Source: Thiobacillus sp. (GTDB lineage Bacteria; Pseudomonadota; Gammaproteobacteria; Burkholderiales; Thiobacillaceae). Taken from it: 34,235 nt of DNA. Positions 6,848 to 33,662 of the stretch are shown one piece after another; position 1 is the stretch's first letter, and the number at the start of each line of letters is the position of its first letter. The position numbers and the translations under genes are program-made. The notes under the pieces are model-generated. The model was not told the DNA's origin. It worked only from the letters and a program-made list of their open reading frames with translations, and did no database searches. The stretch is from positions 1-34,235 of the forward strand of contig JANJXF010000056.1 of assembly GCA_024709165.1 (NCBI GenBank), given 5' to 3'.

Positions 6848-7720
6848 ATGCTCAATATCGATCTGCATTGCCACTCCGATGCGTCCGACGGCATGCTGCC
6901 CCCCGCTGCGCTGGTGGCCCGCGCCGCGGCCAACGGGGTGGACGTTCTCGCGCTGACCGACCATGACGAAGTTGCCGGCATCGCCGCGGCACGGGTTGCG
7001 GCGGAAGCGGCGGGCATCGTGCTTGTCCCCGGTGTCGAGATCTCGGTTACCTGGGAGGGCGTGACCGTACACGTCGTCGGCCTGCGTGTCGACCCCGCGC
7101 ATCCGGAACTTGCTGCCGGACTGGATGGAATCCGCAAGGGCCGCATCGAGCGGGCCCGCCGCATGAGCGAGGACCTTGCGCGGGCGGGGATTGGCGGGGC
7201 GTACGAAGGGGCCCATGCGCGTGCAGCCAACAAGCAGATGCTTGGCCGTGTGCACTTCGCCCGCTGGCTGGTGGAGCAGGGTCATGCCGGCGACCTGCGC
7301 GCCGCGTTCCGCCAGTTCCTCACGCGCGGCAATCCTGGGCATGTCGAACATGAGTGGGCGTCGCTGAAAGACGCCATCGGCTGGATCCGCAGCAGCGGTG
7401 GTACGGCGGTCCTGGCGCACCCAGGGCGCTACCCTTTCCCCACGCGCGACATGCACCGTTTGCTGGATGCCTTCCGCGCGCTCGGCGGAACGGGTATCGA
7501 GGTCATCACCGGCAGCCATCATCCCTCCGAATACGGCAAGTGGGCCGATCTCGCCCGCGCGTTCGACCTCAGGGCCTCGCGTGGCACGGATTTTCACGCG
7601 CCCGGCGAGGGAGTCGAGCTTGGCCGGGTGCCCGCCTTGCCGCATCATTGCCGGCCAGTGTGGGAGAACTGGCCGGAACTCGAACCGCTTCTTTCGCCGG
7701 CTTCGGCTACATGCCTCTAG
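6848..7720 (+). CDS. PHP-domain phosphoesterase (YciV/RNase AM-like)
   Basis: The 290-aa protein opens with the PHP metal motif IDLHCHSDASDG, followed by LALTDHDEVAG, VPGVEIS, a central VLAHPGRYPF and the C-terminal GTDFHAPGE. Together these supply the His/Asp/Glu ligands of the trinuclear metal site. The family (YciV, TrpH) hydrolyses 3',5'-nucleoside bisphosphates and trims 5' ends of short RNAs. The ATG at 6848 is chosen over a TTG nine bases upstream because the motif follows directly. It is followed after four bases by yciO, matching the usual betaproteobacterial order PHP-yciO-M50 protease-trpS. Confidence 0.92.
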   Translation: MLNIDLHCHSDASDGMLPPAALVARAAANGVDVLALTDHDEVAGIAAARVAAEAAGIVLVPGVEISVTWEGVTVHVVGLRVDPAHPELAAGLDGIRKGRIERARRMSEDLARAGIGGAYEGAHARAANKQMLGRVHFARWLVEQGHAGDLRAAFRQFLTRGNPGHVEHEWASLKDAIGWIRSSGGTAVLAHPGRYPFPTRDMHRLLDAFRALGGTGIEVITGSHHPSEYGKWADLARAFDLRASRGTDFHAPGEGVELGRVPALPHHCRPVWENWPELEPLLSPASATCL

Positions 7721-10465: not shown

Positions 10466-11284
10466 ATGGCCGAGGAGACCGATCTTTCCCGCAGCGAGCC
10501 GCCGAGTCCCCGCCGGCTCCAGGCTGCGCGCGGCGCGGGCGACGTGCCGCGTTCGGGAGAATTCGCACGCTGGGTCGTGCTGCTTGCCGGACTGGGCATG
10601 CTGGGCTGGCTGGCGGAGCGCGTGCTGACGGGTTTCGAGACGCTGACCGCGTCGGTGCTGCAGCAGGCCGCGGTGCCGGTGGGCACGGATTCCCTGCAGC
10701 CCGTGCTCGATTTTCTGCCTGTGCTGCTGCCGCTTCTGGCGGCGATCTTCGTCGCCACACTGGCGGCACCGCTTCTGCTGTCGGGCTGGACTTTCGCGCC
10801 ACAGGTCGCGCGCGCCAGATTCGATCGTGCGTCTCCCTTCAAGCCGGTTTCGCGTCTGCTGTCGCAGGATGCATGGTTCGACGTTTTTCTCATGGTGCTG
10901 AAGCTGGGGCTGATCGCCGGCGCAGTGGTCTGGGCGCTGGAAAACGGCTGGACCGACTTGCCGGCTGCGGACGGCACCACGACACTGCGTGAATTTGCCA
11001 CCTGGGTCGGCAATGCCGTGATGGCGGTGGCGCTGGCGCTGACCCTGACGGCTGCGCTGGATGCAGGCTGGCGCTGGTGGCGTTATCTGCGGCGGCACGC
11101 GATGACCCGGCAGGAAGTGCTGGCCGAGGCGCGCGAGGCCGAATTGCCGGCCGAGGTGCAGGCACAGCTCCGTGCGCGGCAGGAGCGGGCGGCGCAGACG
11201 GCGCGGGGAGCGGCGGGCCCTCTCCCTTCTGCGACGCAGGGGACGAGCGCTGGGCCAAAAACGATTGACGAGGTGCTCGGGTGA
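10466..11284 (+). CDS. flhB: FlhB-like flagellar export protein lacking the cytoplasmic domain
   Basis: The 272-aa product matches the N-terminal half of FlhB: MAEETDLSRSEPPSPRRLQA, four membrane helices, and the linker MTRQEVLAEAREAE. Normal FlhB (~350-380 aa) continues into a cytoplasmic domain that cleaves itself at NPTH and switches export from rod/hook to filament. Here the linker runs into an Ala/Gly/Pro-rich tail and stops; no NPTH or other part of that domain is encoded. The stop overlaps the flhA GTG by four bases (GTGA), so the truncation is joined cleanly to an intact flhA. The TM region is well kept. It may be a decayed export gate, or the missing domain is encoded elsewhere. Confidence 0.85.
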   Translation: MAEETDLSRSEPPSPRRLQAARGAGDVPRSGEFARWVVLLAGLGMLGWLAERVLTGFETLTASVLQQAAVPVGTDSLQPVLDFLPVLLPLLAAIFVATLAAPLLLSGWTFAPQVARARFDRASPFKPVSRLLSQDAWFDVFLMVLKLGLIAGAVVWALENGWTDLPAADGTTTLREFATWVGNAVMAVALALTLTAALDAGWRWWRYLRRHAMTRQEVLAEAREAELPAEVQAQLRARQERAAQTARGAAGPLPSATQGTSAGPKTIDEVLG

Positions 11285-13359
11285 GCGCGCAGGGGGTGAT
11301 GGTGATGGGCATGCCGGTGCAGCGTCTGGCGGTGCCGATGCTGGTGCTGCTGATCCTGGCGATGATGGTGTTGCCCTTGCCCACCTTCATGCTCGACGTG
11401 CTGTTCACGCTCAACATCGCGCTGGCGATGATCGTCCTGCTGGTCAGCCTGAACGCGCGCCGACCGCTGGATTTTTCGGTCTTTCCCACGGTGCTCCTGC
11501 TGACCACGCTGCTGCGCCTGTCGCTCAACGTCGCATCCACCCGCATCATCCTGATGCAGGGCCACACCGGGCCGGATGCGGCGGGCAAGGTGATCGAATC
11601 GTTCGGCAACTTTCTGGTCGGCGGCAACTATACCGTGGGCTTCGTGGTATTCCTGATTCTCGTCATCATCAATTTCGTCGTGATCACCAAGGGCGCCGGG
11701 CGCATCGCCGAGGTGGCGGCACGCTTCACGCTGGATTCGATGCCGGGTAAACAGCTCGCGGTGGATGCCGATCTCAACGCGGGCTTCATATCCGAGTCGG
11801 AAGCACGCACGCGACGCACGGAAATCAGCCGCGAGTCCGATTTTTACGGCGCGATGGACGGTGCCTCGAAGTTCGTGCGCGGTGACGCGATCGCCGGCAT
11901 GATGATCATGGTGGTCAACCTCATCGGCGGGATTCTGGTGGGCCTGTTCCAGCATCAGCTCGGCCTCACCGAAGCATTGGGCCGTTACGCGCTGCTGACG
12001 GTGGGCGATGGCCTGGTGGCGCAGATTCCCGCACTGGTGATCTCCACCGCGGCAGGCATCGTCGTGAGCCGTGCATCGAGCGAGCAGGATCTCAGCCGCG
12101 AGTTTTCCACGCAGGTCTTCGGCCGGCCGCAGACGCTGTTCGTGGCGGCGAGCGTGCTGGCCGTGCTGGGCCTGATCCCGGGTACGCCGCACGCGGCGTT
12201 CCTGCTGATTGCGGCGGCACTCGGTGCGGTCGGCCTGTGGCTGACACGCCAGCAGCAGCGTGCGACGTTCGATATCGAGCCGCTGGAAGTGATCGAAGAT
12301 GCCCCCGCGCCGCTCGATCTCACCTGGGACGACATCCCGCCGGTCGATGTGCTCGCGCTGGAAGTCGGCTACCGCCTCATTCCGCTGGTCGACCGCGCCC
12401 ATGGTGGCGTGGCGCTGGCGAGCATCACCGAGGCGCGGCGGCGGTTTGCCACCGACATGGGGCTGGTAGTGCCGCTGGTGCGGGTGCGGGACAACCTTAA
12501 TCTCAAGCCGAATGCCTATCGCATTACGCTGAAAGGCGTCGACGTCGCGCACGGCGAACTGCCGCCCGGCCAGGTGTTGGCCGTCGACATGGGCGATGTG
12601 CTGGGCCGTCTCGACGGTTCCTCAGGCGTCGATCCGCTGACGGATTGCGCAGGGATCTGGATCGAGGCGGAACGGGTGGAGGAAGCAGAGCTGCGCGGTT
12701 TCGTGGTGATGCAGCCGGCGGACCTGCTCGCACGGGAGGTCGAAGCGGTGTTCCGCCTGCACGCGCCGGAGCTGCTCGGGCGCACCGAGGTGCAGCAACT
12801 GCTCGACACGCTTGCGCGCAACCAGTCGGGCCTCGTCGAGGACGTCACTCCGCGCCATCTGCCGCTCACCAGCGTGCAGGCCATCCTGCAGCAACTCATC
12901 GCGGAAAACGTGTCGATCCGCGACAGCCGCACCCTGTTCGAAACCCTGGCAGCGCGTGCGCCGACCACGCAGGCGATCGACGACCTGGTCGAGACGGTAC
13001 GCGCCGCGCTCGGACGCAGCATTGTCGATCGCCTGTTCGAGGGCCGCGACATGCTGCATGTAATCGGCCTTGCCGCGGATACCGAGACACGTCTGCTGGA
13101 CGAAATGGGCGATGAAGGCGAGGCGCTGCTTACCCCGGCGACGCTCGATGCATTGAATGAAGCGGCCGAACGCGCACTCGCCGCACAGGAGGAGGCCGGC
13201 TACCCGGCGGTGTTGCTGACCTCGCCCGGACTGCGTGCGATCCTGTCGCGCTTGCTACGGCGCAACCTGCCGCGCCTGGCCGTCATCGCCTATGCCGAGG
13301 TGCCCGCCGATAAAATGGTGCAGGTGATGACGGAACTGACGATCGGAGGGGCGTCATGA
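11281..13359 (+). CDS. flhA: Flagellar export protein FlhA
   Basis: The 692-aa protein has the eight-helix N-terminal region and the FHIPEP-type signature (RESDFYGAMDGASKFVRGDA, residues ~195-214), then a full-length cytoplasmic domain (~340-692). FlhA forms a nonameric ring in the flagellar export gate that receives chaperone-substrate complexes. It looks full length and intact, unlike its neighbours flhB, flhG and fliA. GTG at 11281 overlaps the flhB stop and the stop overlaps flhF (ATGA), so translation of flhB-flhA-flhF is coupled. Confidence 0.95.
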   Translation: MSAQGVMVMGMPVQRLAVPMLVLLILAMMVLPLPTFMLDVLFTLNIALAMIVLLVSLNARRPLDFSVFPTVLLLTTLLRLSLNVASTRIILMQGHTGPDAAGKVIESFGNFLVGGNYTVGFVVFLILVIINFVVITKGAGRIAEVAARFTLDSMPGKQLAVDADLNAGFISESEARTRRTEISRESDFYGAMDGASKFVRGDAIAGMMIMVVNLIGGILVGLFQHQLGLTEALGRYALLTVGDGLVAQIPALVISTAAGIVVSRASSEQDLSREFSTQVFGRPQTLFVAASVLAVLGLIPGTPHAAFLLIAAALGAVGLWLTRQQQRATFDIEPLEVIEDAPAPLDLTWDDIPPVDVLALEVGYRLIPLVDRAHGGVALASITEARRRFATDMGLVVPLVRVRDNLNLKPNAYRITLKGVDVAHGELPPGQVLAVDMGDVLGRLDGSSGVDPLTDCAGIWIEAERVEEAELRGFVVMQPADLLAREVEAVFRLHAPELLGRTEVQQLLDTLARNQSGLVEDVTPRHLPLTSVQAILQQLIAENVSIRDSRTLFETLAARAPTTQAIDDLVETVRAALGRSIVDRLFEGRDMLHVIGLAADTETRLLDEMGDEGEALLTPATLDALNEAAERALAAQEEAGYPAVLLTSPGLRAILSRLLRRNLPRLAVIAYAEVPADKMVQVMTELTIGGAS

Positions 13360-14480
13360 GTGTGCGGGTGTTTGTTGCGGCGAATGCGCGCGAGGGGTTG
13401 GCGCGGGTACGGCGCGAACTTGGCAAAGATGCTGTGGTTTTGTCGACGCGCCCGCACCCGCAAGGCGTGGAACTGCTTGCCAGCGCGTACGGCGAGCTGG
13501 CGGCGCCCGCTGCGGTCGATGCGGCTGAAGTGCCGGGCAGTTCTCGCATCCTGCAGGAACTGAACCGTCTGCGCGGGCTGCTGCAGAACCAGCTTGCCGG
13601 CTTCGCCTGGGGCAGCACCCGACGGCGTGATCCTGTGCGGATAGCGCTGATGCAGACGCTGTTCGCCGCGGGTTTCGGCGGTGAACTGGCGCGCACGCTG
13701 GCGGCACGCCTGCCGCGCGGACTGGATATCGACGCCGCACAGCGCTGGCTGCGCCAGGTGCTGATCCGCAATCTGCCGGTGTTGCCGCGCAGCGAGGATC
13801 CGGTCGTCCGCGGCGGCGTGCTGGCGCTGGTCGGTTCCACCGGCGCGGGCAAGACCACGACGCTCGCCAAGCTCGCCGCGCGTGGCGTCGCTGTGCATGG
13901 CGCCGGCGAGGTCGTGCTGGTCGGGACGGACGTCTGGCGCGTCGCCGCTGGCGCACAGCTTGCCGTGTACGCCGACTTGCTCGGCGTCCCGGTTTACACC
14001 GCGGCCGATGCGGCCGCGCTTGCGGCGCTGCTGCCGCAGCTGGCGGACAGGAAGCTGGTGCTGATCGACACGGCTGGCCATGCGCCGCTGGACCCGCGCG
14101 TGCGCGACGTGGCGGCGTTTGACACACTTGGTGTGCGCCGTATCGCGGTGATCGCCGCGGGCCTGCAGGGCGTGGCGCTGGAGCAGGCGATGACCCGCTT
14201 CGGAACAGGTGCCGCCGCGTGTGTACTCACCAAGCTCGACGAGACGCCGCAGCCGGGCGCGGCGCTGGATTGCCTGATCCGGCATCGCCTGTCGCTGGCC
14301 CACGTCTGCACCGGCCAGCGGGTGCCGGAAGACCTGCACGCCCCTCACGCGGCCTACCTCGTCGACCGCGCACTCAAGGGCGGGCAGCTGGCCACGCCCT
14401 TCACGCTGGAAGCGGACGACTGGCCGCTGCTTGCCGGCGTCGAGGCCGAGCGCGCCGCGAAGGATACGCGTGCTGCCTGA
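13356..14480 (+). CDS. flhF: Flagellar SRP-like GTPase FlhF
   Basis: A 374-aa protein with FlhF layout: N-terminal segment starting MSVRVFVAANAREGLARVRR, a helical N-domain, then the SRP-type GTPase with P-loop VGSTGAGKTTT (~residues 158-168), GTDVWRVAAGAQL, LIDTAGH and VLTKLDETPQPG. FlhF sets the place and number of polar flagella and is regulated by FlhG. The GTPase motifs look intact. The DTAGH motif and the TKLDE specificity motif are present. The ATG overlaps the flhA stop by four bases. Confidence 0.94.
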   Translation: MSVRVFVAANAREGLARVRRELGKDAVVLSTRPHPQGVELLASAYGELAAPAAVDAAEVPGSSRILQELNRLRGLLQNQLAGFAWGSTRRRDPVRIALMQTLFAAGFGGELARTLAARLPRGLDIDAAQRWLRQVLIRNLPVLPRSEDPVVRGGVLALVGSTGAGKTTTLAKLAARGVAVHGAGEVVLVGTDVWRVAAGAQLAVYADLLGVPVYTAADAAALAALLPQLADRKLVLIDTAGHAPLDPRVRDVAAFDTLGVRRIAVIAAGLQGVALEQAMTRFGTGAAACVLTKLDETPQPGAALDCLIRHRLSLAHVCTGQRVPEDLHAPHAAYLVDRALKGGQLATPFTLEADDWPLLAGVEAERAAKDTRAA

Positions 14481-15114
14481 CCAGGCCGCCGGCTTGCGGC
14501 GGCGGACGAATCCCGCACCGCGGTGCATCCATTGCGTGGCCTCGTCGCCTGCCCCAGCCGAGCGGCTGGGCGAGGCCCTGCATCAGCAGGGCTGGCACGT
14601 GCTGCGGGTGGAGACCGCAAGATTCCATGCCACGCAGTTTCCTGCGCGAAATCTGTTCGACTGGCGTCAGCAACTCGCGCAGGGACGCATCAGCATATTG
14701 AAGACGACACATGGTGATGTCTGGCACGCGCCCGCACTGGAAGCGGGTGCACCCGGGGTCGTCGGGGTGGCGGCCCGCTACGATGCCGTGCTGCTGGACG
14801 CGGACTTGGCGTGCGACGCGTGGACGCCGATGCCCGGAGCCGACAATCGCATGATCATCGATGTGCCGGGCGAGCCCGGAGCCCTGCAACAGGTCTTCCG
14901 TCTGCTCAAGACCGCCGCTCACTGCTCACCCGCCTGCGAGGCGGTTCTCATCGGCGATGGGCTTGCCTGCACGCGCCTGCAGGAGGCTGCCGGCCGCTTT
15001 CTCGACATCGCCTTCACACGCACGCTTGTGCGCCTTGACAAAGAAGTTGAACCATTCGCCGTGCTTGCCGCTAGAATGGCGGGCGAGGAGAAGGGCCGGA
15101 GTGCCCGTTGCTGA
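14470..15114 (+). CDS. FlhG-like protein without a P-loop
   Basis: The gene lies exactly where flhG is expected, between flhF and fliA, overlapping the flhF end by 11 bases if the GTG at 14470 is used. The 214-aa product starts LPDQAAGLRRR, the DQAxxLR motif with which FlhG stimulates FlhF GTPase. The next stretch, PRCIHCVASSPAPAERLGEA, aligns in position with the MinD/FlhG Walker A segment (VASGKGGVGKT), but the Lys/Gly/Thr residues are gone. A later DAVLLDADLACDAW could be the remnant of the Walker B strand. FlhG is normally an ATPase of ~270 aa limiting flagellar number. This product probably cannot bind ATP but might still activate FlhF. No gene symbol is given because of this divergence. 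Confidence 0.75.
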   Translation: MLPDQAAGLRRRTNPAPRCIHCVASSPAPAERLGEALHQQGWHVLRVETARFHATQFPARNLFDWRQQLAQGRISILKTTHGDVWHAPALEAGAPGVVGVAARYDAVLLDADLACDAWTPMPGADNRMIIDVPGEPGALQQVFRLLKTAAHCSPACEAVLIGDGLACTRLQEAAGRFLDIAFTRTLVRLDKEVEPFAVLAARMAGEEKGRSARC

Positions 15115-15238
15115 TTCAGCAGACGCGATACATCGAGTGAAACGATGCCGCGCGGGATTGGCAATCATGAAGCAGCCAACTGCTTGGCGATCGGGTCGGC
15201 CCCGGCCGTTCGCCGTCAATAACAAGGGACGTCTGAAC

Positions 15239-15949
15239 ATGGCTGGTAAACCTTCGTCGCAGGACGAACAGATCACCAAGTATGCGCCGCTGGTCAAACG
15301 CATCGCGTATCACATGATGGCGCGCCTGCCTGCCAGTGTCGAAGTCGATGATCTGATCCAGGTCGGATTGATCGGGCTGATGGATGCGGTGACGCGCTTC
15401 GACGGCACGCAGGGAGCCCAGTTCGAATCTTATGCCACGCAGCGTATCCGCGGCGCGATGCTCGACGAACTGCGCGAGGCCGACTGACTGCCGCGCCACG
15501 TGCGGCAGAAGTCGCGCCAGATCGAGGCGGCAATCAGTCGCCTGGAACAGCGCCACGGCAAACCGCCCAGCGAACAGGAAATCTCTGCCGAACTCGGCAT
15601 GCCGATCGACCAGTACCAGACGATGCTGGGCGATGTGAAATGCTCGCAGCTCCTGTATTACGAGGATTTCTCCGACGAGGACAGCGCCAGCTTCCTGGAA
15701 CGCTATCTGGTCGACGGCGGCAGCGATCCGCTTGCCCTGCTGGAAGACGAGGGCTTCCGCGCAAGCCTTATCGCCGCCATCCATCACCTGCCGGAGCGCG
15801 AGCGCAGCATGATGGGCATGTACTACGAACAGGATATGAACCTCAAGGAAATCGGCGCGGTGCTGGGCGTATCCGAATCGCGCGTGTGTCAGTTGCATTC
15901 GCAGGCGGTCGCGCGCCTGCGCGCCCAGCTCAAGGTCTGGAAGGACTGA
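15239..15949 (+). pseudogene. fliA: fliA (sigma-28) interrupted by in-frame TGA
   Basis: The frame from ATG 15239 (preceded by AAGGGA) encodes region 2 of FliA ([35 protein letters not shown]) up to [12 protein letters not shown] at 15485-15487 then takes the place of the conserved Trp (READW). The same frame continues without any other defect through [15 protein letters not shown], region 3 and a complete region 4 ([35 protein letters not shown]) to 15949. One base change (TGG to TGA) therefore explains the break. Intact FliA would be ~236 aa and would transcribe late flagellar and chemotaxis genes. The frame is otherwise preserved, so the stop is recent, a sequencing error, or read through. 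Confidence 0.88.
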
Positions 15950-33571: not shown

Positions 33572-33662
33572 TGGCGGAGAGGGGGGGATTCGAACCCCCG
33601 TCAGGGTATTACCCTGAACACGCTTTCCAGGCGTGCGACTTAAACCACTCATCCACCTCTCC
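33572..33662 (-). tRNA. tRNA-Ser (anticodon GGA)
   Basis: Read on the minus strand, the 88-nt tRNA (5' at 33662, discriminator G at 33575, followed by an encoded CCA at 33574-33572) has a perfect 7-bp acceptor stem GGAGAGG/CCTCTCC. It has a D-arm with GGTTTAAG, an anticodon loop CTGGAAA (anticodon GGA at 33628-33626), a long variable arm (CAGGGTAATACCCTG) typical of serine tRNAs, and a T-arm GGGGGTTCGAATCCCCC. It reads UCC/UCU codons. Its 3' side is full of mobile-element remains, consistent with tRNA genes being integration sites. Confidence 0.95.

Follow-up and report, generated by a model that had tools for sequence, protein, structure and literature searches.

The window, by which we mean the whole analysed stretch of 34,235 nucleotides (contig JANJXF010000056.1 of the Thiobacillus sp. 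assembly GCA_024709165.1, forward strand), contains the gene run flhB'-flhA'-flhF'-orfX-fliA' (10466-15949), in which the last gene, fliA', is interrupted by an in-frame stop codon. It also carries a tRNA-Ser (GGA) gene (33575-33662, minus strand). The features of the run are as follows:

10466..11284, plus strand: flhB', 272 aa, without the C-terminal switch domain with NPTH
11281..13359, plus strand: flhA', 692 aa, above the TIGR01398 cut-off
13356..14480, plus strand: flhF', 374 aa, above the TIGR03499 cut-off
14485..15114, plus strand: orfX at the flhG position, degenerate flhG-like and fast evolving
15239..15949, plus strand: fliA', second sigma-28 gene, interrupted; orthologues in 52 of 56 genus genomes, own included
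15239..15487, plus strand: upstream fragment of fliA', 82 aa, only sigma region 2
15485..15487, plus strand: in-frame TGA of fliA'; Trp in 51 of 51 other orthologues
15482..15513, plus strand: stable hairpin around the TGA and immediately behind it; the intact gene of the related genome G010 forms it equally
15488..15949, plus strand: downstream fragment of fliA', 153 aa, sigma regions 3 and 4

The frame of fliA' runs from the ATG at 15239 to the end codon TGA at 15947-15949 and comprises 235 codons, with the stop at codon 83, directly preceded by GAC (the Asp of READ) and followed by CTG. In the 5' direction the frame stays open up to an ATG at 14861, thereby overlapping orfX. The upstream half matches Sigma70_r2 with residues 12-81 (E 1.5e-18), and the downstream half matches Sigma70_r3 (E 3.6e-13) and Sigma70_r4 (E 1.5e-18). 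Furthermore, both halves match the FliA profile NF005413 in register (13-89 and 91-240 of 241), with scores of 118.6 and 167.6 bits, each of which falls below the cut-off of 201 that applies to the whole protein. The claim of the first-pass annotation that a single TGA interrupts a fliA gene whose two parts lie in one frame and encode all FliA regions is thus borne out; among the sigma-28 hallmarks, regions 2, 3 and 4 are all present in FliA register and the uninterrupted frame is missing. The best named match of the C-terminal half originates from a Thiobacillus sp. (97%). Reinitiation of translation at GTG 15500, the first in-frame start after the stop, was considered and rejected, since a Shine-Dalgarno sequence is not obvious by eye and the product would be without region 2.

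The orthologues were collected by a DNA search (identity at least 81%) with one genome per species, in which G009, G021, G022 and G030 gave no fliA' match; in G030, flhA' lies close to a contig end. The stop position could be read in all 52 orthologues, and TGA occurs exclusively in the window, which agrees with the earlier recognition of a conserved Trp codon. Trp is also found at this position in G078 and G065, the copy of the latter being situated at a contig end. G008 (70% complete) has a frame-shift close to the end of fliA' and an flhA' split over two frames (L207, G008:C222:2900-7120), which reflects either decay or poor assembly.

Compared with G010 and G014, the window copy has nine private codon changes ahead of the stop, all of them silent; behind it, 14 silent and two replacing ones were counted. 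Against both genomes, the C-terminal half has a dN/dS of 0.05. By parsimony with these three genomes, whose branching is weakly supported (96/34) and in which the window's branch is inseparable from the stem shared by G010 and G014, approximately 47 replacing changes would be expected in this half if it had been neutral over the whole branch, compared to the two observed. The neutral share of the branch has a 95% limit of approximately 9%, which rises to at most 20% if silent changes are taken at their low limit. Purifying selection has acted on both halves of fliA', and FliA' is the most constrained among the five cassette proteins. Because of the tight constraint after the stop, the lesion, if real, should be young. 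A pseudogene produced by old decay was rejected, since the relaxed selection after the stop that such decay implies was not found. Full readthrough would make the constraint on the C-terminal half appear identical.

Taken together, the TGA is probably a recent nonsense mutation with loss of function, or a metagenome strain variant, in the gene for the sigma-28 of a second export apparatus of flagellar origin, which most of the examined Thiobacillus genomes carry beside the ordinary flagellum. A recent nonsense mutation or a sequencing error had been proposed from the sequence, and this pair of alternatives is supported. Nevertheless, we regard it as rather unlikely that the stop stems from faulty assembly or sequencing, or from a minority variant in the consensus of this metagenome-type assembly. 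In favour of an error, only a single base is concerned in a gene with two strongly constrained halves, and the assembly is 87.25% complete, 2.41% contaminated and divided into 219 contigs (the window is contig 79). However, 27 other ORFs of the window (497-30398) align nearly full length and in one frame to G010, which attests the quality of the contig only in part, as these ORFs were chosen as open frames; the genes of the second system located elsewhere in the same genome align without stops as well. Among the long window ORFs, the worst alignment to G010 still covers 398 of 411 residues, and for the ORFs at 7398 and 28513 the start was probably placed too far upstream, which would explain single stops in the reference.

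Functional readthrough, in which the ribosome sometimes passes the UGA and thereby provides a low dose of full-length FliA', was another earlier suggestion, which we now consider very improbable. A UGA with C as the next base counts as leaky, and the constraint on the C-terminal half as well as the hairpin, which comprises nine base pairs, begins immediately behind the stop and has a z of -4.3 relative to shuffled sequences, are compatible with such a mechanism. The native hairpin is stronger than 98.8% of 3000 synonymous recodings, with 1.2% of them folding as well. However, G010 forms the same hairpin behind a Trp codon with the same energy of -20.0 kcal/mol, and in many relatives it is weaker or disrupted. 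Hence, the hairpin predates the stop and is probably a by-product of coding, and its function as a recoding element was set aside. Moreover, the stop is present in just one of 52 orthologues, and a UGA-reading tRNA was not found among the 28 tRNA places of the assembly, which is without tRNA-Trp; for these 28 places a suppressor tRNA was rejected. Reading of UGA as an amino acid throughout is ruled out, as TGA is the end codon in 22 of 27 further ORFs of the window; the previous view that a changed code is unlikely therefore stands. One could also imagine that the entire second cassette has long been decaying in the lineage of the window, with fliA' as the first visible casualty, an explanation that overlaps with a young lesion and that we judge improbable. 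The fliA' gene itself is tight, and the shares of replacing changes in flhA' (12/72) and flhF' (13/50) resemble those of the sisters and show no excess, whereas orfX accumulated 32 replacing versus 20 silent changes on the window branch, compared to 17 versus 25 in the sisters (Fisher p 0.061). The frame-shifts in both flhA' and fliA' of G008 also indicate that decay, or else poor assembly, does occur in this cassette.

The interrupted gene is not the only fliA of the genome. An intact second FliA, which is 56% identical to the product of fliA' and 99.6% identical to its counterpart in G010, is encoded at C154:3622-4362 in the neighbourhood of flhD-like, flhC-like, flhB, flhA, flhF, flhG and motA-like genes, with names that follow from reading of the sequences and, for FlhA, FlhB and the sigma domain, are also backed by searches. 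The broken copy thus belongs to a separate, paralogous set, and the idea that the sigma-28 of the cell would be throttled is not supported.

The cassette itself differs from an ordinary flagellar operon in several respects. In 10 of 10 genus genomes, FlhB' ends ahead of the autocleaving C-terminal domain, and NPTH was not found in the FlhB' of the window. The same ten genomes encode a separate small protein with only the C-terminal domain of FlhB (C5:2204-2434 in the own genome), which might supply the missing switch in trans, so that the truncation of FlhB' need not mean lost function. OrfX gave no match in Pfam or NCBIfam. Among 15 more distant loci, 12 combine a complete FlhB with an FlhG that can be recognised; the other three, L056-L058, with a short FlhB and no FlhG match, form the sister group in the FliA tree. 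In this tree, Thiobacillus FliA' and its sister group join the Hydrogenophilus-type FliA (100/87), and the ordinary Thiobacillus FliA has a long branch in another part of the tree, where its placement is less well supported (94/98); 150 loci were given, the window (L009) entered with X, L198 is without a row, and the deep forks are not firm. Judged from this tree, FliA' may be the vertically inherited copy.

Other components of the second set are distributed over the genome. At least two FlhA matches, some of them being pieces, were found in 46 of the 56 genus genomes; in G063 the second match consists of two pieces in different open frames (G063:C44:14802-16660). Two FliP proteins are encoded in 10 of 10 genomes, and the second FliP of G024 is located within the run fliF-fliG-fliH-fliI-orf-fliO-fliP-fliQ-fliR. 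The counterparts of this cluster in the window's genome reside on contig C176 (L199, 9597-16873) and align without stops. The cut-offs of the flagellar equivalog profiles are passed by FlhA' of the window and by FliI, FliP, FliQ and FliF of G024, and the FliR of the second set in G024 was found under its cut-off. A second set of rod and hook genes or a second FliM/FliN pair was not found in any of five genomes tested, each with one set of six rod/hook matches and one FliM/FliN pair, and we therefore rejected a complete second flagellum. FlgM has two matches in nine of ten genomes and one in G014. In the own genome two flagellin matches were detected: the first directly follows a FlgK-type rod match (C207), and the second is truncated at the edge of its contig (C184).

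Five genomes (INDEPENDENCE: G015, G029, G068, G073, G075; 79-99% complete) have FlhA' and FliA', and an ordinary FlhA or FliA match was not found in them. Rod/hook matches were likewise absent from all five, compared to six in the control G066. G078 resembles these genomes; the rod/hook search covered the five and G066. A scan of the available stretches for sigma-28 promoters gave few matches, which were mostly chance-like. A perfect TAAA-N15-GCCGATAA is present upstream of a flgM-type gene outside the main flg cluster (L204, 6982, and counterparts) in four of ten genomes (G016, G024, G066 and G079), and the other six, including that of the window, have a weaker or different sequence there. 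A different upstream sequence of this second flgM-type gene, TAAGGTTT-N11-GCCGTA, is common to G000, G010, G014 and G011. As the window's genome resembles G010 and G014 in this region, there is no sign of promoter decay.

From gene content, the second set may be regarded as a remodelled export machine, in which FliF, FliG, FliH, FliI, FliO, FliP, FliQ, FliR and FlhA are kept, FlhB is without the substrate switch, rod, hook, FliM and FliN are missing, and an own sigma-28 is present. It would work without a flagellum and be kept where the swimming flagellum was lost, and the strain of the window would just have lost its sigma factor; we give this reading about even chances. Among the matches listed by literature searches on Thiobacillus with flagellar terms and on export without flagella, which covered few subscription papers, no description of a second flagellar export system in Thiobacillus was found.

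Related situations are described elsewhere, and the following comparisons refer to the accessible parts of the cited papers. In Pseudomonas putida, the sigma-28 factor FliA is encoded in a flhA-flhF-fleN-fliA operon (PMC6424431). The Thiobacillus cassette has the same gene order and the same kind of sigma factor, but represents a second copy in which flhB' is truncated and the flhG-like ORF degenerate, and in the window's genome its sigma factor is stopped after region 2. Lysobacter enzymogenes has a flagellar export apparatus without a flagellum, whose genes are needed for the export of foreign flagellin and in some cases for twitching (PMC7277350). Flagellar export genes are retained there without a flagellum being made, and this apparatus is the nearest tested precedent; in contrast, the Thiobacillus set mostly occurs beside an ordinary flagellar set, encodes a separate sigma-28 and has an FlhB' that lacks the switch domain. 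Some Legionella species possess a second, partial flagellar system, or FliA and FlgM without flagella, and provide a precedent both for partial second systems and for a sigma-28 kept without flagella, whereas one Legionella species, unlike Thiobacillus, retains only FliA and FlgM (PMC5655016). The non-flagellar type III systems of Myxococcales, which root the non-flagellar type III tree, likewise keep an export core without rod, hook and other motility parts (PMC3459982), but FlhA', FliI, FliP, FliQ and FliF of Thiobacillus score as flagellar and FliA' groups with the Hydrogenophilus-type FliA. In a survey, FliA matches were reported for 41% of the genomes classed as non-motile, which suggests that sigma-28 without a flagellum is not rare (PMC12199754).

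If the stop is real, translation would end after sigma region 2, most likely leaving the cell without active FliA'. A product without regions 3 and 4 should neither recognise the -35 element nor bind an anti-sigma factor through region 4. Unless the ordinary FliA takes over, the late genes of the second apparatus would then be silent. The stop should thus hit the late-gene sigma factor of an export apparatus that derives from a flagellum and has no rod, and swimming should not suffer directly.

Be it a young lesion or an error, the stop is confined to a single genome and nothing unusual; more interest attaches to the second set. A second flagellar export set is kept across a chemolithotroph genus without rod and hook genes of its own, and in five genomes FlhA' and FliA' outlive the swimming flagellum. 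As the most constrained protein of the cassette, FliA' offers a natural handle on its regulon, and the strain of the window would, if the lesion is true, represent a natural knock-out of the sigma factor of the second set. Hence, the purpose of half a flagellum becomes testable in a genus that is both harmless and cultivable.
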